A stretch of 64,000 nucleotides of DNA from the IMG/VR virus record IMGVR_UViG_3300046009_000910, positions 1 to 64,000 of that record; one strand, 5' to 3'. Below the pieces are notes generated by a model. That model saw only the letters and a list, made by a program, of their open reading frames with translations. It was not told the DNA's origin and did no database searches. Position numbers and translations under genes: made by a program. Source of the DNA: a virus. Shown here piece after piece: positions 20,995 to 50,965 of the stretch (position 1 is its first letter; every line of letters begins with the position of its first letter).

Positions 20995-21010
20995 TGTCAA
21001 ATCTTTGACA
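20995..21010. promoter_or_regulatory. Operator palindrome, copy 1
   Basis: TGTCAAATCTTTGACA is a perfect 7-2-7 inverted repeat whose right arm contains the TTGACA -35 box of the promoter at 21005-21033. Near-identical sites occur at 26858-26873, 26878-26893 and (minus orientation) 38342-38357, all on promoters, so a common regulator is likely. Confidence 0.65.
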
Positions 21011-21305: not shown

Positions 21306-21322
21306 TGTGTGACTGTCACACA
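21306..21322. repeat. 17-bp palindrome, copy 1
   Basis: TGTGTGACTGTCACACA is a perfect inverted repeat around a central T. It is repeated at 21780-21796 and, with central A, at 22807-22823. Copies 1 and 2 share the following AAACTT too, and both precede a ribosome site and start codon. It could act as a DNA operator or as an mRNA hairpin in the leader. Confidence 0.7.
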
Positions 21323-21779: not shown

Positions 21780-21796
21780 TGTGTGACTGTCACACA
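21780..21796. repeat. 17-bp palindrome, copy 2
   Basis: Identical to copy 1 (21306-21322) and extended by the same AAACTT. It lies directly after the TAA stop of the first early gene and 20 bases before the ATG of the next, so it could set differential expression of the two. Confidence 0.7.
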
Positions 21797-22724: not shown

Positions 22725-22931
22725 ATGAACTCGAAGGCAAACGCAGTATTGCTGATGGCAAAAACAAAAGCACTTCAAGATAAACCTAACAGGTACAAGA
22801 CCGAGATGTGTGACAGTCACACAAATCCTCAACGGGTACTCACCGCCTTACCTGATGCAGGGCGTGACGATTGGGCAAGGTTTAAGCGTGAGTGCGTGCT
22901 GTTGAAACCAACCAAAAGGAAATCGAAATGA
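22725..22931 (+). CDS. Small early protein
   Basis: 68 residues: MNSKANAVLLMAKTKALQDK, then PNRYKTEMCDSHTNPQRV and DDWARFKRECVLLKP. The third copy of the 17-bp palindrome lies inside the gene and encodes the CDSHT stretch, so the palindrome is tolerated within coding sequence. It overlaps the next gene by ATGA. Ribosome site AGGTAGGTG upstream is fair. No family. Confidence 0.55.
   Translation: MNSKANAVLLMAKTKALQDKPNRYKTEMCDSHTNPQRVLTALPDAGRDDWARFKRECVLLKPTKRKSK
22807..22823. repeat. 17-bp palindrome, copy 3
   Basis: TGTGTGACAGTCACACA: same arms as copies 1 and 2 with A at the centre. This copy is inside the coding sequence of the gene at 22725-22931 and about 120 bases upstream of the next start. 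Confidence 0.65.
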
Positions 22932-25737: not shown

Positions 25738-26852
25738 TGATTAACACATGGAATGTAGCGCAGATAGAAAACTACAAGCAGGCACATACCTACTTTGAAA
25801 AGACACGCTACCCTGCACGCAGTAAGAAGTGGTTTGAACATCAACGCCCACTACGCAACACATCGTCACCACACCTACGCATCGAGCGCGGTGAAGCGCA
25901 TGGCGTTAAGTACTATGACCTGTGCCTGTACACAACCGAACTCGTGCGCTACTTTGAACCCAATGCACATGGTGAGGAAGCGGTGTGGTTGTTCAATCAT
26001 TACAGCAACTCATCGCAGAGATTCTTGTGGAACGCAGGGTGGTATAACCGCAAAGAGTTTACCAAGCAAGACGGTGAGAAGTTTCTTCTGCAGTTATCAA
26101 ATCAAGGAGAGATTGCTAGGCATCTGTGGGGCGAGCACTTCACCTGCAGGCTTGTGTTCGATATGCACGGCAAAGTAATCACAGAGAAAAGCGTGCATGT
26201 CCCGTTCACACGCAAGGCATCTACCGATACGCACCGAGCCAAACGCAAGCAACTGCGTGAGGACTTCACGCCTGTATTCGACATGCTGGAGATGCAGTAT
26301 CAGTCTTTCATTGACGGTGTTGAGATCAATGAGCGCAAAGGTCAACCGTTTAATGCACGCGGGTACGACAAGGCGGTGTCATCGGATACGAAGGCTAGGT
26401 TGAAGATAGAAGGGTTCAAAGGGCTTACTCCTGACGACTTAACAGCAGTCGTGCAGTACGCCACAAACTGTTGCCACAACATAGCCGAGAGCATCGTCAA
26501 CCGCAGGGCTTATCAGTACGACACAGGTAGGCGTATGGGTTACAACGAGTACCAAGAAATGAAGAGTAAATGCCAAATCCCTGTCGATGGCTTACTGCTG
26601 AGTGCGCATACCCCCGAGGTTATCGCACGCCTGACCCCCACTTGGGAGGACATCAAGAAGGCGGTGGAGATTGACCTGCTGTACCTAGCGGGGTTGGCTG
26701 AGGGCGACGAGTATGTGCCCTACCCCCAACTAGCCAAGACCTTTGCCAAGCGGTGCTACGGGCTGGTTAAGCCTGCATTTGGTGATATTCCCAACATGTT
26801 AGGGATAGAGACTTATGATAAACTTGTTAATAGGAAGGGGGTAGTGTATTAA
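25734..26852 (+). CDS. Large early protein of unknown function
   Basis: 372 residues. The start overlaps the previous stop (ATGA). N-terminal half: YKQAHTYFEKTRYPARSKKW, IERGEAHGVKYYDLCLYTTE and a beta-like section (RLVFDMHGKVITEKSVHVPF). C-terminal half is helical (DLTAVVQYATNCCHNIAESI, MGYNEYQEMKSKCQIPVDGL, LAKTFAKRCYGLVKPAFGD). No catalytic motif or known family stands out. It immediately precedes the operator-controlled AAA+ cassette but is probably in the earlier transcript. Confidence 0.65.
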   Translation: MMINTWNVAQIENYKQAHTYFEKTRYPARSKKWFEHQRPLRNTSSPHLRIERGEAHGVKYYDLCLYTTELVRYFEPNAHGEEAVWLFNHYSNSSQRFLWNAGWYNRKEFTKQDGEKFLLQLSNQGEIARHLWGEHFTCRLVFDMHGKVITEKSVHVPFTRKASTDTHRAKRKQLREDFTPVFDMLEMQYQSFIDGVEINERKGQPFNARGYDKAVSSDTKARLKIEGFKGLTPDDLTAVVQYATNCCHNIAESIVNRRAYQYDTGRRMGYNEYQEMKSKCQIPVDGLLLSAHTPEVIARLTPTWEDIKKAVEIDLLYLAGLAEGDEYVPYPQLAKTFAKRCYGLVKPAFGDIPNMLGIETYDKLVNRKGVVY

Positions 26853-26856
26853 AACC

Positions 26857-26893
26857 TTGTCAAATCTTTTACAACCCTGTAAAATCTTTTACA
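26857..26893 (+). promoter_or_regulatory. Promoter with two tandem operators upstream of the AAA+ cassette
   Basis: TTGTCA (26857-26862), 17 bases, TAAAAT (26880-26885): each box matches five of six consensus positions. Operator copies TGTCAAATCTTTTACA (26858-26873) and TGTAAAATCTTTTACA (26878-26893) cover the -35 and -10 boxes, centred exactly 20 bases apart, i.e. two helical turns, suited to cooperative binding. Transcription would begin near 26893 and read the cassette from 26924. Confidence 0.7.
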
Positions 26894-26923: not shown

Positions 26924-28051
26924 ATGAATACAAACGACTTTCTTTCACACCAACAGGTTGCTGACTTAATCAAAGCAGTTGGCGCTACGCGTACCGTCAT
27001 CGTGATGGGTGAGAACGGCATCGGCAAGACAGCCCTGCATAACACGCTGTGCCAAGACGCCAAGTTCGACAACCACATCAAGATCAAGCCCATCGACTCC
27101 ACGCAGTTGAGCGATGGTTCGCTGACCATGCCTGACCTTGATCGTGAGCGTGGCGTGTCCACAGAGTTGCCCAACGAGCGCCTTGGTGTGTCCAAGTTCA
27201 ATCGCAAAGGCGTAGATGGTTCGCGCCCTGTATTGGGTATGTTCGATGAGATCGCCAAGGTTCCGCAGTTCGTTAAGAACATGTTGGCTCCGGTCCTCTA
27301 CGAGCGACGCATTGGCAACTATGTAATGCCCGAGGGTTCGGTGTGGTTCGCGGCAACTAACCTGTCGTTCGAGGGTTTGGGCGATTCGTTGCAAGCACAC
27401 CTACGCAATCGTTTGATCGTGGTCAAGATGCGTAAGGCTTACACAAGCGAGTGGCTCAACAACTACGCGATCCCCAACGGACTGAACCCCATCATGCTAG
27501 CGTGCGTGGAGGAGTACCCGATGATTGGCGATTCGTTCATGGACTACATGAAGGGTGGCAAGTACGAGGGCAAAGACATCGAGAAAGACAACCCACACAT
27601 CTTCAACCCCAAGGTTGTGCAAGATGCGTATGCGTCGTGGCGTTCTATCCATGCAGCATGCGACATCTTAGATGTGATGGATCAGTTCGACTCCGATACC
27701 CTGCGTCGTGCGTTGGAGGGTACGGTGGGTAAGTCATTCGCTTCTGTTCTTGATTCGTTCATTCGCTTCGGGAAACAACTTCCCCCTATCAACAGTATTC
27801 TTTCTGCCCCTGACACAGCCCCGATCCCAAGCAACAAGATCGCGCAACAAGTTCAGGTCTTTCAATTCATCACTCGCGCAGAGGATCGGGATCAAGCGCA
27901 GGCGTTCACCAAGTATGTAATGCGTCTACAACCCGAGATGCAGTCGTTGTTCTGCCGTCGTGTCGCTGACTCTCAGCGTGTTGGTTTGTTCACAACCGTT
28001 ACGGAGTTCGGGCGCATGCTGGCTGACAACAAGATTTACTACAAAGTTTAA
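26924..28051 (+). CDS. MoxR/CobS-type AAA+ ATPase
   Basis: 375 residues. Walker A at ~29-36 (GENGIGKT); the DxDR-type insert TMPDLDRERGVSTELPN; Walker B at ~105-112 (GMFDEIAK); an insert typical of the MoxR/CbbQ clade (FVKNMLAPVLYERRIGNYVM); sensor 1 at ~143 (FAATN); then SLQAHLRNRLIVVKMRK with the arginine finger. C-terminal helices follow. MoxR-type ATPases remodel partners and nearly always work with a VWA-domain protein, here the next gene. Ribosome site AAAAGGAGCATATAAAT. First gene under the operator-controlled promoter. Confidence 0.88.
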   Translation: MNTNDFLSHQQVADLIKAVGATRTVIVMGENGIGKTALHNTLCQDAKFDNHIKIKPIDSTQLSDGSLTMPDLDRERGVSTELPNERLGVSKFNRKGVDGSRPVLGMFDEIAKVPQFVKNMLAPVLYERRIGNYVMPEGSVWFAATNLSFEGLGDSLQAHLRNRLIVVKMRKAYTSEWLNNYAIPNGLNPIMLACVEEYPMIGDSFMDYMKGGKYEGKDIEKDNPHIFNPKVVQDAYASWRSIHAACDILDVMDQFDSDTLRRALEGTVGKSFASVLDSFIRFGKQLPPINSILSAPDTAPIPSNKIAQQVQVFQFITRAEDRDQAQAFTKYVMRLQPEMQSLFCRRVADSQRVGLFTTVTEFGRMLADNKIYYKV

Positions 28052-28072
28052 TAACAAGAAGGAGGTATCAAT

Positions 28073-29278
28073 ATGAATACCAAACAATCTACATGGGACA
28101 TCATGAGTCCCGAACAGCGCGTGCGTGCTGTCAACATCGACATCATGAACCACATGGACTTCTGCACGCTGTCTGGTCTGGTCACGATGGGTAATGTCAA
28201 CATTGTCGATGGCATGCCAACGGCAGGCACTAATGGTGTCGATGTGTTCTACGGCACAGAGTTCACGCTACGGCAAACACGCAAGCAGTTACGGTTTGTT
28301 CAATGCCATGAGGCGTTACACAAAGCCCTGCGTCATTGTGTCGATTACAAAGACATCGTGAAGAAGTATCCTGACCTGTCTAACATCGCTATGGATTATG
28401 TAGTCAATGCGTTCATTGAGCAGACTGACCCTGACCACAAGTTCATCGAGTTCACAACCAATCCAAAGCCTTTGCTCGATCCTAAGTATTACAACCGTTC
28501 GTTCGTAGATGTGTTGCAAGATTTACTCAAGAACGGCACATCTAAAGACGGTGGTGGTAAGGGTGGGCAAGACGGCGGTGATGAGCCACTCGATGAACAC
28601 TTCCCTATGCCTGAAGATGTTGATGCCAAGGAAATCGAGAAGCAGATTGAAGATGCCCTCAATCATGGCGATATGGTGCAGAAGCGTTTGCAAGCGGGTA
28701 GCAACAAGGGTGGCAACCCTCTGGCTGGTCTTGGTGTCAAGCGTGATACTGATTGGCGCAACGCCCTGCGTGAGTTCATCGAGCAAGTCGTGACGGGTGA
28801 CGAGTATTCCCGATTCAATCCCCCCAACCGTCGCTTTCTTGCCCATGACATCTTGATGCCAACACATTTTGATGTAGCGATCGGTGAACTGATTATTGCC
28901 GGTGATACATCGGGTTCGATGGGTGGTGTGTATCCGGTGGTGTTCGGTGAGGTAGCCAACATCTGCAAGCAAGCCAATCCTGAGAAGGTTCGTATCATTT
29001 GGTGGGACACCGAGGTGTGCGCTGAACAAGTGTTCAATCGCGGTGAGTTTGATGACATCGCAGGGCTACTCAAGCCTGCCGGTGGCGGTGGTACTTCTCC
29101 ACAATGCGTTGCTAATTACATCGTCAAGCACGACTACAAACCAACGGCTGTCATTTGGCTGACCGATGGCTATCTCGATGCGTGCCCTGTCGCTGTCTGT
29201 GCCAACGAGTTGTGGGGTGTAGTTAACAACGATCATTTTCAACCCGCGCATGGCAAAGCCCTGCGTATTCATGCTTAA
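28073..29278 (+). CDS. Metallopeptidase-like plus VWA protein (DUF2201-type)
   Basis: 401 residues. The N-terminal part resembles the DUF2201/putative metallopeptidase domain: VQCHEALHKALRHCVDY contains HEALH at 79-83 (HEXXH), with a downstream IAMDYVVNAFIEQ helix. A Gly/Asp linker (DGGGKGGQDGGDEPLDEHF) leads to a VWA-like C-terminus with the MIDAS-type GDTSGSMGG at ~277-285, IIWWDTEVCAEQVF and VIWLTDGYL. The pair AAA+ and VWA is the classical MoxR arrangement. A linked peptidase-like fold suggests substrate handling. The phage role is unknown. AAGGAGGTATCAAT precedes the ATG. Confidence 0.82.
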   Translation: MNTKQSTWDIMSPEQRVRAVNIDIMNHMDFCTLSGLVTMGNVNIVDGMPTAGTNGVDVFYGTEFTLRQTRKQLRFVQCHEALHKALRHCVDYKDIVKKYPDLSNIAMDYVVNAFIEQTDPDHKFIEFTTNPKPLLDPKYYNRSFVDVLQDLLKNGTSKDGGGKGGQDGGDEPLDEHFPMPEDVDAKEIEKQIEDALNHGDMVQKRLQAGSNKGGNPLAGLGVKRDTDWRNALREFIEQVVTGDEYSRFNPPNRRFLAHDILMPTHFDVAIGELIIAGDTSGSMGGVYPVVFGEVANICKQANPEKVRIIWWDTEVCAEQVFNRGEFDDIAGLLKPAGGGGTSPQCVANYIVKHDYKPTAVIWLTDGYLDACPVAVCANELWGVVNNDHFQPAHGKALRIHA

Positions 29279-29288
29279 GGAGACCAAC

Positions 29289-29831
29289 ATGAAACAGCGT
29301 GATTTGTTTGAAGTAGCCGACGAGGACTTTGATGAGATGTTTAACAACCAAAAGCAACAAGAAGAACAGCAACACAGAAACAAACTAACAGAGGCATTGA
29401 ACAACATAATGGCTAAGCGCCAAGAAAGGAAGGGCAACATGAAACCAGTCCGTGAACTTCGTGATGTACACAAGAAAGCAATTGATGATGCTATGTCTAG
29501 ACTGAAAGCGGTGGGCTGTGCATTTAAGATCGTTACGCCGGTCAACAGCGAGATCATTCACGATCCCAACAAAGTGTTAGACAAGCGCAAGCATACGGTC
29601 AACCGCGATGATCTGCCGTACCACTACGGTGATTTGAAAAGACACTATCTGCCATACATTGCGAATGTGTCTGTGGGTGATGTGGTGGAGATTCCGTACA
29701 GCGACAACCTACCGTACGCTGCAATTCAAAGCAGTCTGTCCGCGCACTTAACTAATACATGGGGTAGAGGTTCTTACACCACAACCACTAACAAGAAAAC
29801 TAAGAATTTAGAAGTACTACGCTTAGCCTAA
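29289..29831 (+). CDS. Cassette protein with C-terminal basic domain
   Basis: 180 residues from the ATG at 29289 (AAGGAGACCAAC upstream). The N-terminal half is acidic then Gln/Lys-rich coil (DLFEVADEDFDEMFNNQKQQ, NNIMAKRQERKGNMKPVREL). The C-terminal half is a compact alpha/beta segment: VGDVVEIPYSDNLPYAAIQS, SLSAHLTNTWGRGSYTTTTN, EVLRLA, a pattern I recall from phage proteins of unknown function and one that looks able to bind nucleic acid. It sits between VWA and coiled-coil genes, so it may be a third component. Confidence 0.65.
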   Translation: MKQRDLFEVADEDFDEMFNNQKQQEEQQHRNKLTEALNNIMAKRQERKGNMKPVRELRDVHKKAIDDAMSRLKAVGCAFKIVTPVNSEIIHDPNKVLDKRKHTVNRDDLPYHYGDLKRHYLPYIANVSVGDVVEIPYSDNLPYAAIQSSLSAHLTNTWGRGSYTTTTNKKTKNLEVLRLA

Positions 29832-29850
29832 ATAATAAAGGAGCATACAA

Positions 29851-30723
29851 ATGAATAGATACAACATTGATTCTTGCGCGTTACTCGTTGAGTTCAACGC
29901 GTCTGTCTGGACCGCCCGTAAGTTGGATAAGAACGCAACTGATGAGGTTGTTGTTAGCAAGCGTGCAGGAGCGAAAGATGCTGCCCGAGTTAACAAGCAC
30001 CTGCTTGCAGGGCGTAACGAGTTAGATGTAATTCAAAAGCATGTTAACGCTGTCCGCACCTATGTGTATGAGAACACCCTGCCATGGTCTGACACCGGCA
30101 TACGCTTACTGCCAACTTCCAAGTTCATGGACTTCAACGATCGCATGGGCAAACTTGAGGAAGAATTTGTGGAACTAGTCAACGACTTCGTGCAAGTGTA
30201 TCCGTCGTTGATTACTGCTCAGGCTATGGCTCTGGGTGATATGTTTGACCGTAGCGAATACCCAAGTGCCGGTGAGATGTCGCATAAGTTTTCGTTCCGC
30301 TTGAACTTCATGCCTGTGCCCAAGGCTGGCGACTTCCGTGTTGATGTTGGTAACGAAGCACAGGAAGAACTACAAAAGAAGTTAGCCAAGTTGGCTGACG
30401 AGCGTATCGAGTTAGCAATGAAGGAAGCGCGTGAGCGTTTGAAGTCGCACTTGGAGCGCATGATGGAGCGTCTGAAGGTAGAGGAGGTCAATGGCAAGGT
30501 CACGAAGTCCCGCATCCACGACTCCCTCGTTGAGGGTGGGCTTGAACTCTGCGATGTCCTCAAGGCGCTCAATCTTACCAATGACCCTGTCTTGGAGAAG
30601 GCTCGCGCTACGCTGGAGAGACTGTTGCGCACCGTCGATGTTGATGATTTGCGTAAGCATGATTCGGCTCGTGTGGAAGTTCGGACTCAGGTTGCTGAGA
30701 TTATGGATAAGTTTAACTTTTAA
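29851..30723 (+). CDS. DUF3150-like coiled-coil cassette protein
   Basis: 290 residues, helical throughout: an N-terminal VEFNASVWTARKLDKNATDE, then LAGRNELDVIQKHVNAVRTY, DFNDRMGKLEEEFVELVNDF, and a strongly charged coil (KLADERIELAMKEARERLKS, HLERMMERLKVEEVNG). The opening W-T-x-RK and the following layout resemble DUF3150 proteins, which, as I recall, accompany CobS-like AAA+ and CobT-like VWA genes in some integrative elements and phages. It may be the oligomeric scaffold or substrate of the ATPase. Ribosome site AAAGGAGCATACAA is almost the same as for the AAA+ gene. Confidence 0.6.
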   Translation: MNRYNIDSCALLVEFNASVWTARKLDKNATDEVVVSKRAGAKDAARVNKHLLAGRNELDVIQKHVNAVRTYVYENTLPWSDTGIRLLPTSKFMDFNDRMGKLEEEFVELVNDFVQVYPSLITAQAMALGDMFDRSEYPSAGEMSHKFSFRLNFMPVPKAGDFRVDVGNEAQEELQKKLAKLADERIELAMKEARERLKSHLERMMERLKVEEVNGKVTKSRIHDSLVEGGLELCDVLKALNLTNDPVLEKARATLERLLRTVDVDDLRKHDSARVEVRTQVAEIMDKFNF

Positions 30724-31294: not shown

Positions 31295-31545
31295 GAGATC
31301 TAGAAGAAGAAAAGCAAATCAAAGCCTACATGGAGGCAAAGATGACGCACATAAAGATGTACAACGAGTGCATGAACCTTGCCGATGGCCTTGACGTTGA
31401 GAAGTTTGCTGAGTTAGTCCGGGCTGATGAGCGTGAGGCTTGTGCGAAGTTGGTTGAGGCTGATGCCGATGCTCGTGGTAAAGGCGGCGGCGGATTGGTG
31501 CTTTTGAAGGCTGCGGAACGAATCAGAGCAAGGGGTGAGGAATGA
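31291..31545 (+). CDS. Small phage protein with ADEREAC motif
   Basis: 84 residues: EEEKQIKAYMEAKMTHIKMY and then VEKFAELVRADEREACAKLV, EADADA and AAERIRARGE. The RADEREACAKLVE and ERIRARGE motifs recur in many phage early proteins of unknown function. Helical and charged. Both ends overlap neighbours by ATGA. Confidence 0.65.
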   Translation: MRDLEEEKQIKAYMEAKMTHIKMYNECMNLADGLDVEKFAELVRADEREACAKLVEADADARGKGGGGLVLLKAAERIRARGEE

Positions 31546-32237
31546 GCATATCAGCAATGAAGCAAGCATTGGAGGCTTTGGAAAAACTCTGGGACATCAT
31601 TGATGACATTGATACCTATGGCGACATGGCGAAAAGTGACGACAAGTTGTATCGGTCATTGGTTGAACGCAGACAGCGACAACGCTTTGAGCAAACTGGA
31701 ATTTCTACAGATGGGTACGAATTGAATGGTGGGGCCATCACCGCACTACGCCAAGCCATTGCAGAGGCAGAGAAGCAAGAACAAAAAACACCACTTAAGG
31801 TTTTGGGCTTAACGGTGTTTACTGAAAACCGTTTGCGGAATGGGCGTGTCTACGATGTAGAAACACTACAAGCCATGACCAACAGAGACATTTTGGCTAT
31901 CCCCGACATGGGTAAAAAAGCACTCAAGGAAGTTTTGGAGGCGTTAGAGGTTTACGCCATCAACATATCGCAAGAACGTGTCGATGAAACGGCAAAACGT
32001 GAACATGACATAGTTGGGGCGTGTGTTACTTGTGGTGCGCCTCATGACTTCTGGCTCTCTGCGCCGCCTACCGATTTCATCAGCCCGTCTGTTGTTAAAG
32101 CAATTTCAAAGCGTGAATGGGTTGGGCTGACGGAAGATGAGGCGATAGAACTTTTGCCTGTTGGGGATTGGGAGATTGAATCCACTTTGGATTTTGCCAA
32201 AGCCATCGAAGCCAAACTAAAGGAGAAGAACACATGA
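31542..32237 (+). CDS. Protein with RNA polymerase alpha-CTD-like domain
   Basis: 231 residues in three parts. (1) The N-terminus AMKQALEALEKLWDIIDDID to ITALRQAIAEAEKQEQK is a helical module common in phage early proteins. (2) At about residues 85-135, PLKVLGLTVFTENRLRNGRV, YDVETLQAMTNRDILAIPDM and GKKALKEVLEALEVY strongly resemble the alpha subunit C-terminal domain of bacterial RNA polymerase (LxLTVRxxNxLK, IxxxxDLxxxxExxLLxxPNxGKKxLxEI). (3) The C-terminus has a CVTCGAPHDFW Cys pair and an acidic helix. It may bind promoter DNA or replace alpha-CTD contacts. Coupled by ATGA on both sides. Confidence 0.75.
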   Translation: MSISAMKQALEALEKLWDIIDDIDTYGDMAKSDDKLYRSLVERRQRQRFEQTGISTDGYELNGGAITALRQAIAEAEKQEQKTPLKVLGLTVFTENRLRNGRVYDVETLQAMTNRDILAIPDMGKKALKEVLEALEVYAINISQERVDETAKREHDIVGACVTCGAPHDFWLSAPPTDFISPSVVKAISKREWVGLTEDEAIELLPVGDWEIESTLDFAKAIEAKLKEKNT

Positions 32238-36790: not shown

Positions 36791-38346
36791 TCGAAAACAA
36801 AGCGCTATTACTGCGCACACGCAATCCTGACAAGTACAGCATCATTCCCAAGTCAAAGATTGTTAATGAGTTTGATGATGGCATCTTTGAAGTAGCAGTT
36901 AAATGGGGGTTGGATGAAGTACGAGTGCTTAAAAACCTTGGCGTTAAGAATGTTCCATCGCCAATCACGGCACGCTACGACTGGCCCGGGCGGTTCAAGC
37001 CTATGTCGCATCAGATCGAAACGGCTGCGTTCCTCACGCTACATCGTCGTGCGTTCGTATTTTCAGAACCCGGCACGGGTAAAACACTTTCGGCGTTATG
37101 GGCTGCTGATTATTTAATGCGGACAAAACAGGTCAGGCGTTGCCTGATCCTGTGCCCCATATCAATCATGCACTCAGCTTGGATCGCAGATTTACAGAAC
37201 AGCATCATTCACCGCTCTGCAATCATCGCCCATCACCAACAAGCCGCACGGCGTATTGAGATGGTTCAAGGCGACTACGAGTTTGTCGTAACTAACTACG
37301 ATGGTCTGAAGCTTATAGCCAACGAGATTAACAACGACGGACGATTTGATCTCATCATCGCAGACGAAGCCAACGCTTATAAAAACGTCAGCACAGAACG
37401 CTGGAAGGCTCTGCAAAAGATTCTTCGCCCTGACGTAATGCTGTGGATGATGACCGGAACCCCTGCATCGCAGTCCCCCCTAGATGCGTATGGCTTAGCT
37501 AAACTTGTTAACCCTAACGGCGTACCTAGATTCTACACAGCGTGGCGCGACTCCACGATGAACAAGGTCAGCATGTTTAAGTGGGTTCCAAAGCTCGATG
37601 CGCAAGACAAGATTCATGCTGCGCTGCAACCGGCAATACGCTTTACAAAAGCACAGTGCTTGGATCTCCCGCCCGTCATTACCGAGAACCGCGATGTGCC
37701 CTTGACCCCACAGCAAAAGAAGTACTACAACATGCTCAAGGAGCAGATGCTGGTCAGAGCCGCAGGGGAAACCATTACGGCTGTCAACGCCGCCGCAGAG
37801 GTCAACAAACTGCTTCAGATCAGCGCTGGCGCGGCCTACACGGATAACGCGGAGGTAGTAGAATTCGACTGCACGCCAAGACTCTCCGTGCTGATGGAAG
37901 CGCTAGAGGAGACGGATCGCAAGGTCTTAGTATTTGCCCCGTACCGACACAGCATAGATACGATCGCAACGTATCTGGAGCAAAACCAAATTGACTGCGC
38001 CCAGATCCACGGCGATGTATCCCCCAACAAACGCACCAAAATCTTCAAGCAGTTCCAAGAAGAAGCGAGTCCTCGCGTACTTGTAATCCAGCCACAGGCC
38101 GCATCGCATGGCGTAACGCTAACGGCGGCTGACACGGTTGTGTTCTGGGGTCCAGTAATGTCCACAGAAACCTATATCCAATGCTGCGCGCGGTCCGATC
38201 GTAAAGGGCAAGACAGCGACAAGGTAACAGTTATACATATTCAAGGTAGTGACATCGAGCGCAAGATGTTTAAGCGTTTGGCTGAACGCGTTGAGGATAA
38301 CAATATGTTGGTGAAGTTGTATGAGGAGGTGCTTGACAAAAAGTAA
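36781..38346 (+). CDS. SNF2-type superfamily 2 helicase
   Basis: 521 residues. Motif I near 96-103 (SEPGTGKTLSALWAADYL), motif II near 190 (LIIADEANAYKN), motif III near 224 (MMTGTPASQSPLDAYG), the C-terminal RecA-like domain with RKVLVFAPYRHSI, motif V (VLVIQPQAASHGVTLTAADT) and motif VI near 467 (QCCARSDRKGQDSDKVTVIH). It has the phage-type SNF2/DEAD layout and probably unwinds or remodels DNA during replication or recombination. It ends just before the operator/promoter at 38333-38361. Confidence 0.9.
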   Translation: MQIIENKALLLRTRNPDKYSIIPKSKIVNEFDDGIFEVAVKWGLDEVRVLKNLGVKNVPSPITARYDWPGRFKPMSHQIETAAFLTLHRRAFVFSEPGTGKTLSALWAADYLMRTKQVRRCLILCPISIMHSAWIADLQNSIIHRSAIIAHHQQAARRIEMVQGDYEFVVTNYDGLKLIANEINNDGRFDLIIADEANAYKNVSTERWKALQKILRPDVMLWMMTGTPASQSPLDAYGLAKLVNPNGVPRFYTAWRDSTMNKVSMFKWVPKLDAQDKIHAALQPAIRFTKAQCLDLPPVITENRDVPLTPQQKKYYNMLKEQMLVRAAGETITAVNAAAEVNKLLQISAGAAYTDNAEVVEFDCTPRLSVLMEALEETDRKVLVFAPYRHSIDTIATYLEQNQIDCAQIHGDVSPNKRTKIFKQFQEEASPRVLVIQPQAASHGVTLTAADTVVFWGPVMSTETYIQCCARSDRKGQDSDKVTVIHIQGSDIERKMFKRLAERVEDNNMLVKLYEEVLDKK

Positions 38347-38361
38347 AAGATTGGACAAAAT
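38333..38361 (+). promoter_or_regulatory. Promoter with operator, upstream of the ssDNA-binding operon
   Basis: TTGACA (38333-38338, last codons of the helicase), 17 bases, CAAAAT (38356-38361). Between the boxes, 38342-38357 reads on the minus strand as TGTCCAATCTTTTACT, 14 of 16 identical to the operator at 26858. A possible half site, TGTAAAAC, starts at 38362, 20 bases further, echoing the tandem spacing at 26.86 kb. Confidence 0.55.
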
Positions 38362-43124: not shown

Positions 43125-43281
43125 ACGAGGTCAGGGCTTTTTTGTTCCTAGCCTAGATACAGAAAAGACGCGAGAAGAAGGACTCCGGGCCGCAGTTAGT
43201 GCCCGGAGGTTTGACGCCAAAGCTTATGTCGGTGTAATTAACGGGCGGCTTGGCGTTCTATTTGTTCGCGGACCACTTTGA
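43084..43281 (+). CDS. Small protein at the end of the early block
   Basis: 65 residues: LAIQYPWSRLERGQGFFVPS, LDTEKTREEGLRAAVSARRF, and VGVINGRLGVLFVRGPL. The L..GQ.FFVP.L....R......A....V..G..G...VR pattern resembles short phage proteins of unknown function. It overlaps the primase end by 41 bases and the convergent giant late gene by 44 bases, so the two transcription blocks meet tail to tail here with no gap. Confidence 0.6.
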   Translation: MTKLAIQYPWSRLERGQGFFVPSLDTEKTREEGLRAAVSARRFDAKAYVGVINGRLGVLFVRGPL

Positions 43282-46200
43282 AGTTTTGAGCCATGTCGAT
43301 CTTGACTTGGCGTAGTTGGTCCAACTGCTTGCGCTTTTCTTCCGGACCCATCTGCGATGACGGTGCTGCTTTGATGGCACGCTCAGCCTTGGTAATCTCA
43401 CCCATGCGCTGACGGAAAGCCCCAGCGTAACCAGCCATACCAATGTCACCAATGTTCTTCTTAATGTAATCCTGCGCTTCTTGCAGTTTGCCTTCCTCAA
43501 TGAGCCGCTTGTACGTACCCTGCTTTTGCTGAACTTCCTTCACAGACTCAAAGGCTTCATTGATTACGCGCCCAGCGTCGTTAGGCTGGAACAGGCCACC
43601 AACTAACGGCATCTCAGATACTCGACCTTCGACTGCGCCTGCCTCGGCTCCGGTCTTCAGCACAGGGTTAGCAATACTTAGTATGCCCACGCCCAAAGCA
43701 CCGGTGTAGCCACGAATAATATTCTCAGCCTGAACAGGCGATAAACCAAGCAACTCCAACACAGGGGCGACAGCCTTGAGAACTTCAGGCGTCTTGTCAC
43801 GATACTGGAACTGTTTCTCAACGCCTTCCAATCTAGAATCTACGATGTCCCGTCCAGTAAAGAATGATCTGTTGAGCGCCGTCTCAATAAACGGTTTGAT
43901 GGCTGTTGGCACTGGTACACCAGCGTCGGCTGGGTTGCCGGGTAGTGAACGGAGCAACTGCATACCTAAATCTTTAGCAACCTTGCTGCCTTTCTCGTCA
44001 CTAAACGCTGCGTTGTATACGCCTTCCGGTACGGCCTTAAAGAGCAGACCAACTTCAAACGGGATCGGCACACGGAACGGCTCGTCAAAGCCCGGGATAC
44101 GAACAAACCAGTTGCCATAACGCTGCTCTGGCTCTGCGTTCTTATAGGCTTCGTCGTCCTGCATCATCGCGGCATAGGCCATGGTGAGAAGCGCCATCAT
44201 GCCGCCACGGACTAACAACTTCTTCTGGACCTGAAGCTTTTGCTCATACGGCATCTGTCCTGTAAACGCACGGTACAGAACGTCAATACCTTGGATACCG
44301 GCGTTGAAGAACGGGATGGTTGCGTTCAGGAAGTAGATACTTGGCGATACCCCACGGCGACCAAAGTTCATGGACTCAAGCGCCGCCAGTGTGGCCTCAC
44401 GCTCCGACAAACCCTGTTTCAGGAACGAGTTGTACATAGCCATGCGAGTACCGGCATCACCCTTCATAGCGATAGAGTCCAGCTTAGCCATCGCCAAATC
44501 CCACCCGGGCTTACCAGCAGCAATCTGCTGCATGATCTTCGCCATATCTTCAGGAGCGCCAGTAATTACCTGACCGCCCAGTACACCCCGGCGCTGCAGC
44601 TTTTCAAAAGTCTCGCTGCCCTTGCCATACATCTTAACAATCTCACCCATGGTATCGACCACAGGCTTCATATTGGCTCCGGTTGTCAGCGTGGCTGCTA
44701 AAGAATCACGGAAGATCTGACGTACTGCGTAGCGTGGATCGCGGGTAACAAACTTACGTAGCCAGTTAGCAGGCGTAGCCAGTGCGCGGACCGCACCCGG
44801 AACGATAACCTTGATACCCTCCATACCCTTAACAACTAAGTCAGAGGGGATGTCACCAAAAATGTCTTCTTTTGCTTGGGTGTTGATTACTGCATACTTT
44901 TTGCGGTGAACGATCTTGCCGTCTTTGTCTTTCTCGTCCATGCTAAAACGAATGATGTTTGAAGCGGCGGGGCCATCACCGTTATGGATTTCAGCAACAC
45001 CAAGGTCCATCAAAGTAAACGCAGCGTTTCTGGTAGCCAGATTACGCAGTGCCATGTCGGTCAACAGGCTGGTGTTTTGAAGCGACGAGGTAAAGAAGTC
45101 CATGATGGCTTCATCGCCACCAACAAGTTCTTGTAAGTAGGGTTGAGATTTAATGTCACCAATACGGATCGGGTTTTCAGAACCAATAATAAGTTCTACG
45201 TTACCCCCACGCATACGGTAGAACGGCACGTAGTCATTGGTCTTAGAGAGCCGCGCACCTTCTTCCTTACTCAGTGCGCCAGTCTGTACGGCAAACTCAA
45301 TCAGGCCACGGTTGTAATCGTTGTACAGCTCCCGGGCTTTCTGAAATGCTTTACCGGTTGCGGTGCTTTCGTTTTTACCTAGTGCAAGCACACGATCTAA
45401 CTCAGCCTTGGTGATCTTGCCGCCAAAGTTTAGCTTCTCAATGCCAACCCGCTGCGCACGCTCAGCAGCCAGATACAGCGTAAACAAACGACCTGTGGCT
45501 TCAGCGTTACCCACACCAGCGCCTAACAATGCTTGGGAAACATCTTTCAAGCTAGCGCCGCGCTCAGACTCAATAATCTTTTCAGTACGTCCGTCAGGGC
45601 GTTTCACATCCTTAAGCTTCAAGGCTCCGTTATTGGCAATTTCTGCCACAAACGAATGACGCTGGTCAGCCATACGGGCAAAGTACATCATGTCTTGGGC
45701 TTTCAGGGAGTCAATGATCCCTTTCTCCACACCCTTTTTACTTAATGCTTCCAGTGCAGCAAAGCGATCCACGAACTGCACCCTAGCCGCCAAACCCGTA
45801 GCGTTGGCTTTAATGCCATCCCACATACCCTGTTGACGACCTACAATCTTGTCAGTCATTTCACCAAGATCTTCCATGCCGGGGTTGTATTTAGTTGCCC
45901 CCAACCGGAAAGCTACGTCGTCATCACCCTTCTTGTACGCAATAGCTTTGCCTTCTTCAAAAGACTTGTTGGCTTGCTTCATCATATAGAACAGGTCAGA
46001 CGTAGAAAAGTCCATGTCCATGCCAAGCTTCTTGAAGAACGCTCGTACTGCGCCAACCAGTTCTTGCAACCAGCGCTTAGCTTTGGCTAAGAAGTCTTGG
46101 TCAACCCGCTTCTCCATGGTGTAAGCGATGATCTCGCGCAAACCTTTGGTCTTTGCAATACGACGAACATCTTTCTCGCTGATCTTACCTTCAGCCAAAT

Positions 46201-49200
46201 CTTGAGCGTAGAACTTACCGGCACTGGCAACGGCTTGAGCGTAGTCATCCAGAACTCCTAGCTCTTTAGCCAGAACTTCCAACCCGCTTTCGTTGTCCTT
46301 GGTAGCAAAGTCTTTGTCAATCTTAAGCATGAACTTCGTCATACCATCTTCACCCATCATGCCTTCAAAGGTGTAGTGACCGATAAACTCGTGAGCAACG
46401 GTCTTCTCTAGATCGGTCATATCGGTGTGGTTTTCACCAATAATAAACACCGTGCCGTCAGGCTTCACACCACCGCGTATACGCGTCTCGTATACATCTA
46501 CCCCTTGCCGCGCCATATCCTTCAGGATGTCCACGGTTACATCGCCCATGGTGGGGAAATACTTAAACTTCAAATCTTTGGGTAGCTTATTTGCTACCTC
46601 ATCCATGCGCTTGTTGGCTTGCTCAAGGTCAATTCCACCACCCGCAGTGTCGCCAATACGGAAGTCAACCACGTCATCCACAGAGAATGTACGGGGGCCG
46701 CCGTAAGCGCTTAAGCCCATGCCAGACATATTGCGTAGTTGATCGGGCGTAAACTTCTTGTCGTAGTACGGTACTTCGCCACCAACAGGGCCACGGGCAG
46801 CTTGGCGCTTTACTTTCTCAGGCTCGTACTGTGTTTCTTTAAGTAAGCGCAGATTCTCACGGATGCTTCGGACATTGGCTTTAGCCATGTCAACTTCAGC
46901 GCTCATCTTCTTAAACTTGGGGAAGTTCTTAGCAGCTTTGCCTGCGTTAACTTCTTTGACATACTTGTTAAGCTGGAACGTTTTAATCTTGGCAAGTTCT
47001 ACCGCAGCTTTTTCTTCTTCCTTTAACTTGTCAAACATAGCTTCGGGGGAAGACACCTTGGCCTTGCGGCGCAAGTCGCTGACAGCATTACGTTGACGCT
47101 CAGCTATTTCCGCATCAAGTTCTGCTTTAGATTTAACTGGAACAACATGAAACTTAGAAGGCAGTTTAACTTTTTTAACTGGTTTTTCCTGAGCTTCTTT
47201 TTCTTTTGGCGTTAACTTTGCATATGCAGCTTTAGCTTTTTTAAATTCAACTGCGGCTTCTTTACGCGCTTTCATTAAGTCATTAATAAATTCTTCACGC
47301 GTTTTAGCTATAAGCTGTGTGCCGGGAAGACCTAAGCCAGAAGCAATTCTTTGATTTAATTCAGTTTCTTTTTTTGCAAGTTGTTCTGCTGCAGTACGTC
47401 TTGCAAGTGCTATTTTTTGTAATGCTACACGTTGTTGTGTAGCTAAAGCCTTAGCTTTTCTTTGTTCCAATGAACCTTTTGCAAACTTAGAGGCTTGATC
47501 TTCCAAATTTTTTACGTCTTTAATTTCTTGTGCAATGCTTTCATCTAATCGAATCCACTTTTGCACAGTTGTATCAGGCACCCACGTAAGCCGAAAACCT
47601 TCTGTAGAAATTTCAAACTCAGCATCTTCAGCTTTTAAATCTTTAGCCGCTTGTTCTAAACGACTAAGCAATAACTGATGCCTTGGCTCTTTAACTTTTT
47701 CAAGCAGCTTATCTGCTTTTTGAAACGAAGCTGTTTGAATATCTTGTTTAGTTTGTTTAACTAAAGCGTTTATTTTGCCAAGTAAATCACGTTGTTTTGC
47801 TTGAATGTTCTGAGGTGAAAGCTCTTCTGCAACTTCACGTGCAGCTTGCTGCGTTTCAATCCGAATTTGTTCTGCTTTTTTCTTTGCCTCTGCAATCCGT
47901 GCTTTTTCTTTCCGAACAGCACCAGACTTTTGCAGACGCTGGAACTGCCCCGGTGTAGCACGCTCGGTAGCTACGGTTTCTGGGAACAAGTCAGGCTGAA
48001 CACGCTCCTCACGGAACTCGCGCCCTTTGGGCACGGTGGTCATTTGTTCACCAGTAAACTGCGTTGTCTCAGCGTCAAACCGCATCTGAGTCTTGATCTC
48101 GTCAACCAACTCTGCCGTACCGGCAGCAGCCATTGCACGACGACCTCCGGGTTGGGTTACATCACGCTCTAAAGTAAACGGGCGGTCAGTCCCACGGAGG
48201 ATTCTGCCAACCTGTTCCTCAACCAAGTCTTCTAACCCAACACTAGCGCCACCTTCTTCCAACCGACGACGTGCCTGCTCTAACGTATTTGCTACATCAG
48301 GCTGTAGATTTTTCATGCGCAGTACACGGTCAAGGTCTTTAATAAGGTCTGTAGGGGCAGCAGCGTACTGTTTCTTAAGTAACGGCTTCTCACCAGCACG
48401 AACGGCACGTTTGCCTGCGTCGATGGCTTCATCTTTAATTTGTTTGATGTACTCAGACAGTACTTCAATAGCACGGCGGGGGTTGCCAAACTGACGTTCA
48501 GATAAAGGGCGTGGATCAATACGGGCAGTCCGGGCTTCTTTAACAATTTCTGTCCCGCGCATTTGAGCGGGTTCAATCTCAATTTCTGTAATTGCTGCAC
48601 CTCTGGGTAATGCAGTGCTACGAGTAATAAGTTCCTGTAAAGCTTCATCAATCCGTATGCCAGCTCCAATAGCTTCATCACGCGTAAATTGACGCAAACC
48701 CCGTAGCTGACGCTCGTATGCAATCTCTTTAATCAGACCGTCAACAACGTCTTTACGCAGTGCCTCAGACTCCTGAATCAAACCCTCACGCTTGGAACTA
48801 GCCAGCGCGCGCTGGGCAGGCGATGCTTCTTCACCAAAGAAACGGCCCTTACGGTAATCATCCATCAGAGCTACGATGTCTTTAAACGATCCGTCCGCAG
48901 TCTTACGGGCATCTTCAGCCTGCTTTTTGTAAACACCACTAGGTTTACCCGGCTCAATCTCAACGGCTAGGGGAGCAGCAGCTTCACGAGATTCAGTTTC
49001 CAAACGACCAACTAGCGCAGCTTCAGCACCAGTCTCAGGCTCAACACGCCCCTCAACAACAGCCTGAAGACGCTTAAGTTCCCTGAGTTTTGCTTCTGCG
49101 CCAACAAGTTTATAGCCAGCAGGGGTTAGCTGGCCTTTGTTGTCCATGAGTTCTTTCTTACTAACCAGCGCTTTTTGCCGTTGTTCTTCTAACTTATCGA

Positions 49201-50965
49201 TAGCAGCTTTGATATTAGGCAGTACTTCGACAGCCTGCTCACCACGGTAGGTGCGACCTTCAAGACCTTGGATGCCCAGTTCACGAGTCACCGTACGGTC
49301 AACAACACCCTCATCAATCTTGCTCTCAACCAGCTTGCGGACTTCAGGCTCAACACCAGCAGCACGCAATCCAAAGTTATCTAGCACCAAGTTGATACGA
49401 TCCAGCGTCATTTCCTGTGCTACATCTTCTTCACGACGCTGCTGCTCAGCGGCTACCCGCTTGGCAGTTTCCTGCATATCAGCTTCTTCAAGTTCACCTA
49501 GCTGCGCAAGGTAGTTCTGTACCCCACGCTGGGTTTCCTCGTACGTTTTCTCTCGCTTAGCCGTAAGTTCAGCTTCTTCTTTTTCACGCAGACGGCGCAG
49601 TGCTTCATTTCGCTCCTGCATCCGGGCAGCTTCACGGTCATACCCTTCAGCATATTCTTCCTCGGTCATCGCAGCCTTCTTGGGCTTGACGATGTTGCCA
49701 AACTCATCGACCACTACGCGCTCAGCAGGCGCAGCTTTACGTTTAGCCAGTTCGGAGGCTAGCGTGGGCGCAACTCCAGCTTCTTTGGTCGAAGCCTTCA
49801 TCTCTGCCTGTAGACCTTTTAGCTCATCTTTGATCTCTTTAGCCCGTGCAATAGCCTCGGCACGTACGTCTTCGTCAATCGTTTTATCTTTAGCTATAGG
49901 TTCTACTTGAGATAACTCATCTTTCAAGTCAACGATTTTGCTGTTAAGTTCCTGACGATACTCGGGCGTTTGTTTACGGGCTTCTTCAGCCGCTGCAGCC
50001 TGTTCACGTTCAGCCGTAGCCAGTTCTTCTTGGAGCCTGCGCTCCTCAGCCTGAGTCTCAGCAACTTTGCCACGGGCTACGCCACGCTGACCTACACGAC
50101 CAACGGCACCAAACGGACCGCCAACCAATCCAGCCCCATAAGCAGCCTCACCGTACTCAGCCAAGGCATCAGGAGTAGTTAGGGGTAGGCCAGCCTGCGC
50201 ACGCTCAAGAATTTGTTGAGTAATCTCAGTTGGGATCTCTGCCAACGCTCCAACGCCAGCCCCCTTGGCTAGTACTTTCCCTAAGCTTTCTTGGGCAAGA
50301 CGCTCAATAGATTCATTGGTACCACGGGCAAGCGCTTTCTCAACTTCTGGTCCCAACAGTTTGCCAACAACGCCACGGCCTAAAGGAATAAAGGTCGCCG
50401 CAACTTCAAGTGCAGCCCCGGGTACAGCAGCGGCAGCAGCCCTGCCACGAGAAACTTCAGGCGCACCAGCTTCGGCTTGACGCTCCAAAGCCGATCCATA
50501 TAACTGAGCAGCCGCAGGTAGCGCAGCACCAATGACAGCCCCGGGTAGACCAAACCTAGCACCGGCACGGGCACCAGCCAACGTAGCAGCGATATTGGGA
50601 GCCTGTTCAGCCAAGGCTCCGGGTATTTGACTTACGGCTTCACCAGCAGCGGGGAGCAACCCACGCTCAGCATACGCACGCTTAACTTCTTCAAGACTAG
50701 CGCCGGGAGCATATTCACGCCCAATAGCCTCACCACGCTCGATACCGCGCTTTGCAGCCGCAGTGGGGTCAAGTACTGATTCAAGAGCCGTTTGCAGCGA
50801 GGAGCCAAAACGTTTAGCGCCGCCTATAAAGGCAGCGCCGATTCCTTCTTTTTGGGGTTCTACGCTTGGAAGTATGTCCCGTTCAATAGCCAACGCAATT
50901 TCTGCGTCAGACATCGTTTCAGGGAACTTTACTGGCCCATACCCCGGTACTTGAATTGTCCGCAT
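43238..50965 (-). CDS. Giant polyvalent/internal virion protein (LPD38-like)
   Basis: 2575 residues. The N-terminus MRTIQVPGYGPVKFPETMSD is followed by hydrophobic Ala/Gly-rich membrane-like segments (~120-280, AAVPGAALEVAATFIPLG). Residues ~280-1300 are charged coil. An HEXXH motif lies at 1525-1530 (HEFIGHYTFEG), with REIIAYTMEK downstream as possible third ligand. Residues ~2065-2300 resemble the large polyvalent protein domain LPD38 (DPRYAVRQIFRDSLAATLTT). Such proteins are ejected into the host or act during DNA entry. Last gene of the late operon. The block 47.1-48.0 kb is notably AT-rich. Confidence 0.8.
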   Translation of the reverse strand: MRTIQVPGYGPVKFPETMSDAEIALAIERDILPSVEPQKEGIGAAFIGGAKRFGSSLQTALESVLDPTAAAKRGIERGEAIGREYAPGASLEEVKRAYAERGLLPAAGEAVSQIPGALAEQAPNIAATLAGARAGARFGLPGAVIGAALPAAAQLYGSALERQAEAGAPEVSRGRAAAAAVPGAALEVAATFIPLGRGVVGKLLGPEVEKALARGTNESIERLAQESLGKVLAKGAGVGALAEIPTEITQQILERAQAGLPLTTPDALAEYGEAAYGAGLVGGPFGAVGRVGQRGVARGKVAETQAEERRLQEELATAEREQAAAAEEARKQTPEYRQELNSKIVDLKDELSQVEPIAKDKTIDEDVRAEAIARAKEIKDELKGLQAEMKASTKEAGVAPTLASELAKRKAAPAERVVVDEFGNIVKPKKAAMTEEEYAEGYDREAARMQERNEALRRLREKEEAELTAKREKTYEETQRGVQNYLAQLGELEEADMQETAKRVAAEQQRREEDVAQEMTLDRINLVLDNFGLRAAGVEPEVRKLVESKIDEGVVDRTVTRELGIQGLEGRTYRGEQAVEVLPNIKAAIDKLEEQRQKALVSKKELMDNKGQLTPAGYKLVGAEAKLRELKRLQAVVEGRVEPETGAEAALVGRLETESREAAAPLAVEIEPGKPSGVYKKQAEDARKTADGSFKDIVALMDDYRKGRFFGEEASPAQRALASSKREGLIQESEALRKDVVDGLIKEIAYERQLRGLRQFTRDEAIGAGIRIDEALQELITRSTALPRGAAITEIEIEPAQMRGTEIVKEARTARIDPRPLSERQFGNPRRAIEVLSEYIKQIKDEAIDAGKRAVRAGEKPLLKKQYAAAPTDLIKDLDRVLRMKNLQPDVANTLEQARRRLEEGGASVGLEDLVEEQVGRILRGTDRPFTLERDVTQPGGRRAMAAAGTAELVDEIKTQMRFDAETTQFTGEQMTTVPKGREFREERVQPDLFPETVATERATPGQFQRLQKSGAVRKEKARIAEAKKKAEQIRIETQQAAREVAEELSPQNIQAKQRDLLGKINALVKQTKQDIQTASFQKADKLLEKVKEPRHQLLLSRLEQAAKDLKAEDAEFEISTEGFRLTWVPDTTVQKWIRLDESIAQEIKDVKNLEDQASKFAKGSLEQRKAKALATQQRVALQKIALARRTAAEQLAKKETELNQRIASGLGLPGTQLIAKTREEFINDLMKARKEAAVEFKKAKAAYAKLTPKEKEAQEKPVKKVKLPSKFHVVPVKSKAELDAEIAERQRNAVSDLRRKAKVSSPEAMFDKLKEEEKAAVELAKIKTFQLNKYVKEVNAGKAAKNFPKFKKMSAEVDMAKANVRSIRENLRLLKETQYEPEKVKRQAARGPVGGEVPYYDKKFTPDQLRNMSGMGLSAYGGPRTFSVDDVVDFRIGDTAGGGIDLEQANKRMDEVANKLPKDLKFKYFPTMGDVTVDILKDMARQGVDVYETRIRGGVKPDGTVFIIGENHTDMTDLEKTVAHEFIGHYTFEGMMGEDGMTKFMLKIDKDFATKDNESGLEVLAKELGVLDDYAQAVASAGKFYAQDLAEGKISEKDVRRIAKTKGLREIIAYTMEKRVDQDFLAKAKRWLQELVGAVRAFFKKLGMDMDFSTSDLFYMMKQANKSFEEGKAIAYKKGDDDVAFRLGATKYNPGMEDLGEMTDKIVGRQQGMWDGIKANATGLAARVQFVDRFAALEALSKKGVEKGIIDSLKAQDMMYFARMADQRHSFVAEIANNGALKLKDVKRPDGRTEKIIESERGASLKDVSQALLGAGVGNAEATGRLFTLYLAAERAQRVGIEKLNFGGKITKAELDRVLALGKNESTATGKAFQKARELYNDYNRGLIEFAVQTGALSKEEGARLSKTNDYVPFYRMRGGNVELIIGSENPIRIGDIKSQPYLQELVGGDEAIMDFFTSSLQNTSLLTDMALRNLATRNAAFTLMDLGVAEIHNGDGPAASNIIRFSMDEKDKDGKIVHRKKYAVINTQAKEDIFGDIPSDLVVKGMEGIKVIVPGAVRALATPANWLRKFVTRDPRYAVRQIFRDSLAATLTTGANMKPVVDTMGEIVKMYGKGSETFEKLQRRGVLGGQVITGAPEDMAKIMQQIAAGKPGWDLAMAKLDSIAMKGDAGTRMAMYNSFLKQGLSEREATLAALESMNFGRRGVSPSIYFLNATIPFFNAGIQGIDVLYRAFTGQMPYEQKLQVQKKLLVRGGMMALLTMAYAAMMQDDEAYKNAEPEQRYGNWFVRIPGFDEPFRVPIPFEVGLLFKAVPEGVYNAAFSDEKGSKVAKDLGMQLLRSLPGNPADAGVPVPTAIKPFIETALNRSFFTGRDIVDSRLEGVEKQFQYRDKTPEVLKAVAPVLELLGLSPVQAENIIRGYTGALGVGILSIANPVLKTGAEAGAVEGRVSEMPLVGGLFQPNDAGRVINEAFESVKEVQQKQGTYKRLIEEGKLQEAQDYIKKNIGDIGMAGYAGAFRQRMGEITKAERAIKAAPSSQMGPEEKRKQLDQLRQVKIDMAQNFKVVREQIERQAAR

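Follow-up and report, generated by a model that had tools for sequence, protein, structure and literature searches.

On what do a phage's MoxR-type AAA+ ATPase and its vWA partner act? MoxR-vWA machines are widespread, and few have known substrates. The question is raised by a virus record in IMG/VR (IMGVR_UViG_3300046009_000910, 64,128 bases), nearly all of which is covered by the 64,000-nt stretch analysed here, hereafter called the window. At positions 26924-30723 of the window, four open reading frames (ORFs) lie on one strand (+), as the original prediction had placed them, and the motifs named for them are present. They encode a MoxR-type ATPase, a protein joining a zincin-like domain to a vWA domain, a basic orphan protein (P3) and a DUF3150 protein (Table 1). 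The view of the four genes as a single unit holds in part: the cassette exists, but its conserved core consists of MoxR, vWA and DUF3150, while P3 occurs in one clade only. With moderate confidence, and from sequence comparison, we propose that these genes specify an AAA+ remodelling machine of three components, which would act on nucleoprotein complexes of phage DNA metabolism.

Linkage and families of the three core genes

The order MoxR-vWA-P3-DUF3150 is shared by four IMG/VR relatives at 62-88% identity (26-61% for P3), and a fifth relative, cut by the contig end, has vWA-P3-DUF3150. Two alignment-based scans of viral contigs gave 160 loci, which are partly redundant (33 DUF3150 groups at 60% identity; 26 group representatives with the full triad). 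In all 45 DUF3150 loci with enough flank, MoxR and vWA genes accompany DUF3150 on its strand, and the order of the three takes at least four forms: MoxR-VWA-(P3)-DUF3150, VWA-MoxR-DUF3150, MoxR-DUF3150-VWA and DUF3150-MoxR-VWA. The linkage in relatives expected by the original prediction is thus borne out, by the order kept in close relatives and by the 45 loci that hold all three genes. Among the vWA loci with enough flank, 23 of 39 contain the full triad and 16 the pair only. Moreover, MoxR, vWA and DUF3150 co-diverge (Mantel r of 0.88-0.96 versus at most 0.15 in permutations, 64 loci). The ratio of nonsynonymous to synonymous substitution rates (dN/dS) is 0.05-0.2 for all four genes in the comparisons that allowed an estimate of dS (most P3 pairs are saturated), which means purifying selection. 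Because of this constraint and the linkage in 45 of 45 well-covered loci, the cassette is not a chance assembly.

The family calls for MoxR, DUF2201/vWA and DUF3150 were upheld by profile searches. The phage's own ATPase passes no AAA family cut-off in Pfam on its own; it matches PHROG 1297 'ATPase' (4.9e-33), and the members of its 41-member family match AAA_5 (18/41), AAA_3 (8/41) and bpMoxR (5/41). Of the solved structures in PDB, midasin (Rea1/Mdn1; E 2e-33) comes closest to the ATPase domain by the family profile, and the MIDAS-linked AAA+ remodelling logic is shared with it; midasin, however, carries six AAA domains in a single giant chain and works in ribosome assembly, whereas the system here is split, small and of bacterial type. 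The Walker A motif GENGIGKT covers residues 29-36, and G32, K35, D108, N146 and R240 are invariant in the 41 members, with R163 present in at least 90%. By analogy with other AAA+ proteins, the invariant residues are assigned to the Walker A and B motifs and to sensors 1 and 2, and R163 to the arginine finger. The ATPase is accordingly a predicted member of the MoxR/midasin clade.

In the second protein, a vWA domain with a complete metal ion-dependent adhesion site (MIDAS) is fused to an N-terminal HExxH zincin domain, with HEALH at residues 79-83 and DTSGS at 278-282. Both Pfam domains exceed their cut-offs (DUF2201_N, 45.2 versus 23.2 bits; DUF2201 vWA, 38.3 versus 26.4 bits), and the protein matches PHROG 1314 (2.9e-59). 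Across 45 diverged members, H79, E80, H83, D278, S280, S282, T341 and D365 are invariant; thus the HExxH motif, the MIDAS DxSxS, T341 and the later Asp D365, together with the next His and an NxAxD-x3-N motif, are invariant or nearly so. In a pooled set including 26 vWA members, the numbers of matching members were 26 for DUF2201_N, 26 for DUF2201, 11 for M48 and 4 for SprT-like, and no HNH model in Pfam was matched by any of the 26. Since the vWA members match the DUF2201 domains and none matches HNH, we reject an identity as HNH nuclease, and the annotation of PHROG 1314 and of numerous GenBank entries as 'HNH endonuclease' looks wrong. The loci L014 and L015 and the members of PHROG 1314 contain zincin-vWA proteins labelled in this way, an error that has probably propagated through databases.

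The DUF3150 protein passes the cut-off of PF11348 (27.0 versus 24.9 bits), and the same model matches 35 of 62 aligned sequences at E≤0.01. Its dN/dS of about 0.1 means strong constraint, and its motifs include TLPW-D-G-RLLP and PVP-AGDFRV. The AlphaFold2 (AF2) model is predicted to be a long helical hairpin with beta elements (predicted local distance difference test, pLDDT, 90.9; predicted template modelling score, pTM, 0.84); a fold search of PDB gave no solved analogue (best E 0.25), and one of BFVD gave eight strong matches, all to phage proteins (DUF3150, uncharacterized or unnamed). A genome search with PF11348 gave no match, even in genomes where our own profile finds DUF3150, and is hence uninformative. 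Gene 24510 was rejected as a second DUF3150, being sub-threshold (15.7 versus 24.9 bits) and probably a chance coiled-coil similarity. On a Ca. Manganitrophus plasmid (L022, 4866-7888), DUF3150 adjoins an AAA protein and DUF1257/DUF2997 genes, not the usual MoxR and vWA; a different AAA system may therefore also be a partner of DUF3150.

P3, with homologues confined to 36 loci, is best described as a fast-evolving accessory specific to one clade. Its real start is probably 29289, which has its own upstream site TTAAGGAG, and not 29250, whose ATG falls within the vWA gene. A nucleic-acid-binding end had been thought probable; P3 is indeed basic (pI 9.1), yet this idea found no support, since no Pfam family matched the phage's protein or was common to 20 members, and the fold search of PDB gave nothing usable (best E 0.22). 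In addition, no stretch in the alignments from viral contigs (A2) and genome contigs (A5) was conserved enough for scanning. AF2 models P3 (pLDDT 86.9, pTM 0.46) as a long N-terminal helix followed by a C-terminal alpha/beta domain.

Table 1. Features of the cassette and its surroundings in the window
Feature	Coordinates	Strand	Evidence
MoxR/midasin-clade AAA+ ATPase (predicted), 375 aa	26924..28051	+	PHROG 1297, family profile, motifs
DUF2201_N zincin-like + vWA protein, 401 aa	28073..29278	+	Pfam, PHROG 1314, invariant motifs
P3, orphan basic protein, 180 aa (probable start)	29289..29831	+	Ribosome-binding site (RBS)/start, homologues in 36 loci, AF2 model
DUF3150 protein, 290 aa	29851..30723	+	Pfam above cut-off, AF2 model
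Promoter and its two tandem dyad operators (16 bp each)	26849..26893	+	Repeat search, promoter scan 10/12, relatives
Third operator copy, perfect, TGTCAAATCTTTGACA	20995..21010	+	Between structural (-) and early (+) genes
Fourth operator copy, partial	38342..38358	-	Upstream of gene 38389
Small ORF, 86 aa	30735..30995	+	Same leader as MoxR and DUF3150 genes
MarR/PadR-like winged-helix protein, 100 aa	30992..31294	+	Weak profile matches, position after cassette

Genomic settings and possible functions

Head and packaging genes occupy the - strand of this phage; its + strand holds the cassette and also genes for a Hjc/VRR-NUC-like nuclease, PolA, a PD-EXK nuclease, a SNF2 helicase and a primase-helicase; the first four of these come after the cassette. 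Such neighbours recur in a set of 26 divergent triad loci, with PolA at nine of them, the SNF2 helicase and the Hjc-like nuclease at six each, and PD-EXK at five. Outside phages, a Dechloromonas genome has the order DUF3799 PD-EXK (RecE-like)-RecT-primase/toprim-MoxR-DUF3150-VWA-RadC, and the triad is sporadic there, occurring in 1 of the 81 genomes of its family. The original prediction had placed related clusters on other mobile elements, and triads were found on plasmids: the IncC plasmid pSN254 has AAA-hypothetical protein-ssb-bet-exo-DUF3150-VWA, a Rhodovastum plasmid toprim-MoxR-DUF3150-VWA-ParB, and a Cupriavidus conjugative plasmid the triad with DNA-repair genes. The order in Bartonella is ParB-DUF3150-MoxR-VWA. 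For pCAR1 there is an earlier report, presumably that of Miyakoshi et al. 2009. In that report (PMC2642839), the MoxR and vWA genes of pCAR1 are described, and ORF100-103 are conserved in R478, Rts1, SXT and R391. The clusters of pCAR1 (ORF100-103) and pSN254 have the same three annotated families in one direction, with ssb and Bet/RecT nearby; their proteins, however, are very diverged from those of the phage, the vWA partner of pCAR1 is larger and annotated as NorD-like, and DUF3150 has 400-425 aa on pCAR1 and IncC plasmids versus 290 aa here.

Elements that have no linked virion genes still retain the triad, which argues against a primary role in the virion and for a role on nucleoprotein complexes of replication or recombination; the settings outside phages favour such a remodeller over virion assembly or cobalt chelation. 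From these neighbourhoods we infer a mechanism in which the three proteins would form a complex with ATPase and protease activity. The ring motor would be the MoxR/midasin-type ATPase. The zincin-vWA protein would serve as the MIDAS co-chaperone and bring a protease-like domain of its own, and DUF3150, with its long helices, would be dedicated to scaffolding or to recruiting substrates; P3 may be a further, clade-specific adaptor. Presumably expressed in the early or middle phase from an operator-controlled sigma-70-type promoter, the machine would, much like midasin and other AAA+ remodellers in their own pathways, pull on or clip the proteins that occupy intermediates of replication or recombination.

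Several points weigh against this proposal. The association of the triad with such neighbours is no proof, and terminase or portal genes lie near some triads. Vertical descent common to all three proteins contributes to their co-divergence. The IncC version is very diverged from that of the phage (hhalign E 7e-4 for its DUF3150), and the comparison with pCAR1, on which some 10 kb separate AAA-DUF3150-VWA from ssb-recT, relied on annotation alone. Furthermore, in the N4-like and jumbo sets examined, unlike in this phage, DUF3150 was undetected near the pairs (85 ORFs, searched by hidden Markov model and single-sequence hhalign with limited sensitivity). Because these phages keep MoxR-vWA without detectable DUF3150, the latter would be dispensable for some phage pairs.

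The pair itself is already published: a MoxR and metallopeptidase-vWA pair of phages was proposed to serve virion assembly (Iyer et al. 2021, PMC7824862), N4 gp24/gp25 is the same MoxR/peptidase-vWA pair, and a two-subunit pair of MoxR type was also noted in Bacillus thuringiensis (Bt) phage 0305phi8-36. The pair studied here is like the published one (PMC7824862, N4, PHROG 1297/1314) in families, adjacency, strand and motifs, with near full-length homology at 20-30% identity, but this phage adds DUF3150, which is constant in its branch, P3 and the operator-controlled promoter. A paper on N4 phenotypes by CRISPRi-ART does not mention genes of the gp24/gp25 type, and a PubMed Central search covering part of the literature found no paper naming DUF3150. 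The present analysis adds three things: DUF3150 as a constant partner, an operator common to distant lineages, and the recombination context across elements.

That MoxR and the peptidase-vWA protein fold or process structural proteins, as a chaperone or protease of virion assembly, is in our judgement rather unlikely for this cassette. The role was published for the homologous pair of jumbo phages by analogy to a tail assembly system of an archaeal virus (PMC7824862), gp24/gp25 of an N4-like roseophage are close to a second structural module (PMC4193335), and the terminase genes near some triads agree with it. The cassette of this phage, however, is in the replication block of the + strand, apart from the head and packaging genes, and the full triad is found on conjugative plasmids and in recombination clusters with no linked virion genes in the stretches read.

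A role in conflict or counter-defence, in which a switch-like AAA+/vWA-protease machine would hit proteins of the host or of rival elements early in infection, seems improbable to a similar degree. Proposed conflict systems (PMC7159879) combine a MoxR-vWA couple with peptidase effectors and a third component, and they resemble the cassette in their MoxR motor, in a vWA protein that bears an effector or peptidase domain and in having a third member; the carriage by mobile elements, the sporadic occurrence seen around Dechloromonas and the bpMoxR matches of five ATPases fit this idea too. Yet the third component of the conflict systems is VMAP, iSTAND, FtsH or a beta-propeller, and none of these was found by Pfam or PADLOC to accompany the pair, in the cassette or its immediate neighbours; only P3 and DUF3150 do, the latter on phages and plasmids. 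PADLOC matches none of vWA, P3 and DUF3150 and gives weak generic AAA matches for the ATPase, and DUF3150 is strongly constrained, not hypervariable. Finally, metal insertion (a CobS/CobT-like cobaltochelatase or CoxD/CoxE-like maturation of a metal centre) is very improbable in spite of the general resemblance of MoxR-vWA pairs and the VWA_CoxE matches of 5 members in the pooled set, for no CobS or CobT model of Pfam was matched in any member scan, so that cobalt chelation, which the original prediction had named as a possible known function, was rejected; the N-terminal domain of the vWA protein is the zincin-like DUF2201_N, and no metal-enzyme gene was found among the neighbours scanned, in a survey that included no CobN-specific search of the phage genome.

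Operators and neighbouring genes

The prediction of operator control was supported comparatively, by dyads over the promoter, a third copy and conservation in relatives. Upstream of the ATPase gene, the -35 element TTGTCA (26857-26862) and the -10 element TAAAAT (26880-26885) are separated by a 17-nt spacer, and the dyads TGTCAAATCTTTTACA (26858-26873) and TGTAAAATCTTTTACA (26878-26893) lie over them with their centres 20 bp apart. The number of TTGTCAAATCTTTTACA-like sites was reached by 0 of 100 shuffles. Distant lineages also have the motif TGTMAAANNTTTKACA upstream of their cassettes, with outer arms that vary but remain complementary (AGGTTGTCAA/TTGACAACCT, GCCTGTCAAA/TTTGACAGGC and GACGAGTCAAA/TTTGACTCGTC, by lineage), and it precedes the first triad gene even in the VWA-first clade, with 0.01-0.08 copies expected per 220 nt. 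Arm pairing reaches 11-12/14 in the best lineages, versus 9/12 at the 99th percentile of shuffles, and is weaker in the phage's own copies (8/14). Since the motif recurs across lineages with arms that differ yet stay complementary, operator control is supported, and on these comparative grounds the dyad operator is real. In three of four other loci (L063-L066), the place of the dyad operator upstream of MoxR is taken by a different conserved block of promoter sequence, TTTCTATAAAGCAGTATGTTATACTTTCTA.

The leader AAGGAGCATA-ATG is found at the MoxR and DUF3150 genes and at genes 30735 and 38389. It had been read as a sign of balanced expression, but it is missing at the vWA and P3 genes, two of the four in the cassette, and therefore tells little on this point. 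The small ORF that shares the leader is probably cotranscribed with the cassette and outside its core; its homologue is present in L003 (69%) and not in L004, L005 and L007. The winged-helix protein has a sub-threshold match to MarR_2 and, in a pooled scan including two relatives, one match to PadR (3.8e-4); its gene comes after DUF3150 in L003, L004, L005 and L007, and it is a candidate operator-binding regulator. As a universal repressor it was rejected, because the VWA-first clade keeps the operator with no homologue detected within 8 kb.

Other elements were seen nearby. Three near-identical 17-bp palindromes TGTGTGACTGTCACACA are in the early region at 21306-21322, 21780-21796 and 22807-22823 (the third with A at the centre); two of them are directly 5' of an RBS-like AGGAGA, and they resemble a second operator family. 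A 39-nt inverted repeat (22042-22080/22287-22325) is 82% complementary, with arms 206 nt apart and rich in TGTCCAC/GTGGACA. At 31542-32237, a 231-aa protein has a stretch like the C-terminal domain of RNA polymerase alpha (PF03118, 7e-8), unusual for a phage, and could recruit promoters or bind UP-element-like DNA. On the structural strand, a very large ORF of 2575 aa covers 43238-50965 (-).

Implications for mobile elements

Phage, plasmid and chromosomal versions with a constant third partner occur beside RecT/Bet, exonuclease, RadC, ParB and polymerase genes. As a speculative and rather doubtful extension, DUF3150 might mark an AAA+ protease machine dedicated to mobile elements, one that would strip proteins from DNA while it is replicated and recombined and would be a functional analogue, in phages and plasmids, of Cdc48-Wss1/Spartan, in which the zincin-vWA protein would be the protease and DUF3150 the adaptor to DNA or a recombinase. 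The misleading label 'HNH endonuclease' on many phage proteins would be corrected, and DUF3150 would offer a confidently predicted fold without a solved analogue. The published proposal of virion assembly is challenged, at least for the DUF3150 branch, and a machine without an assigned role is turned into a testable idea on the DNA metabolism of mobile elements.

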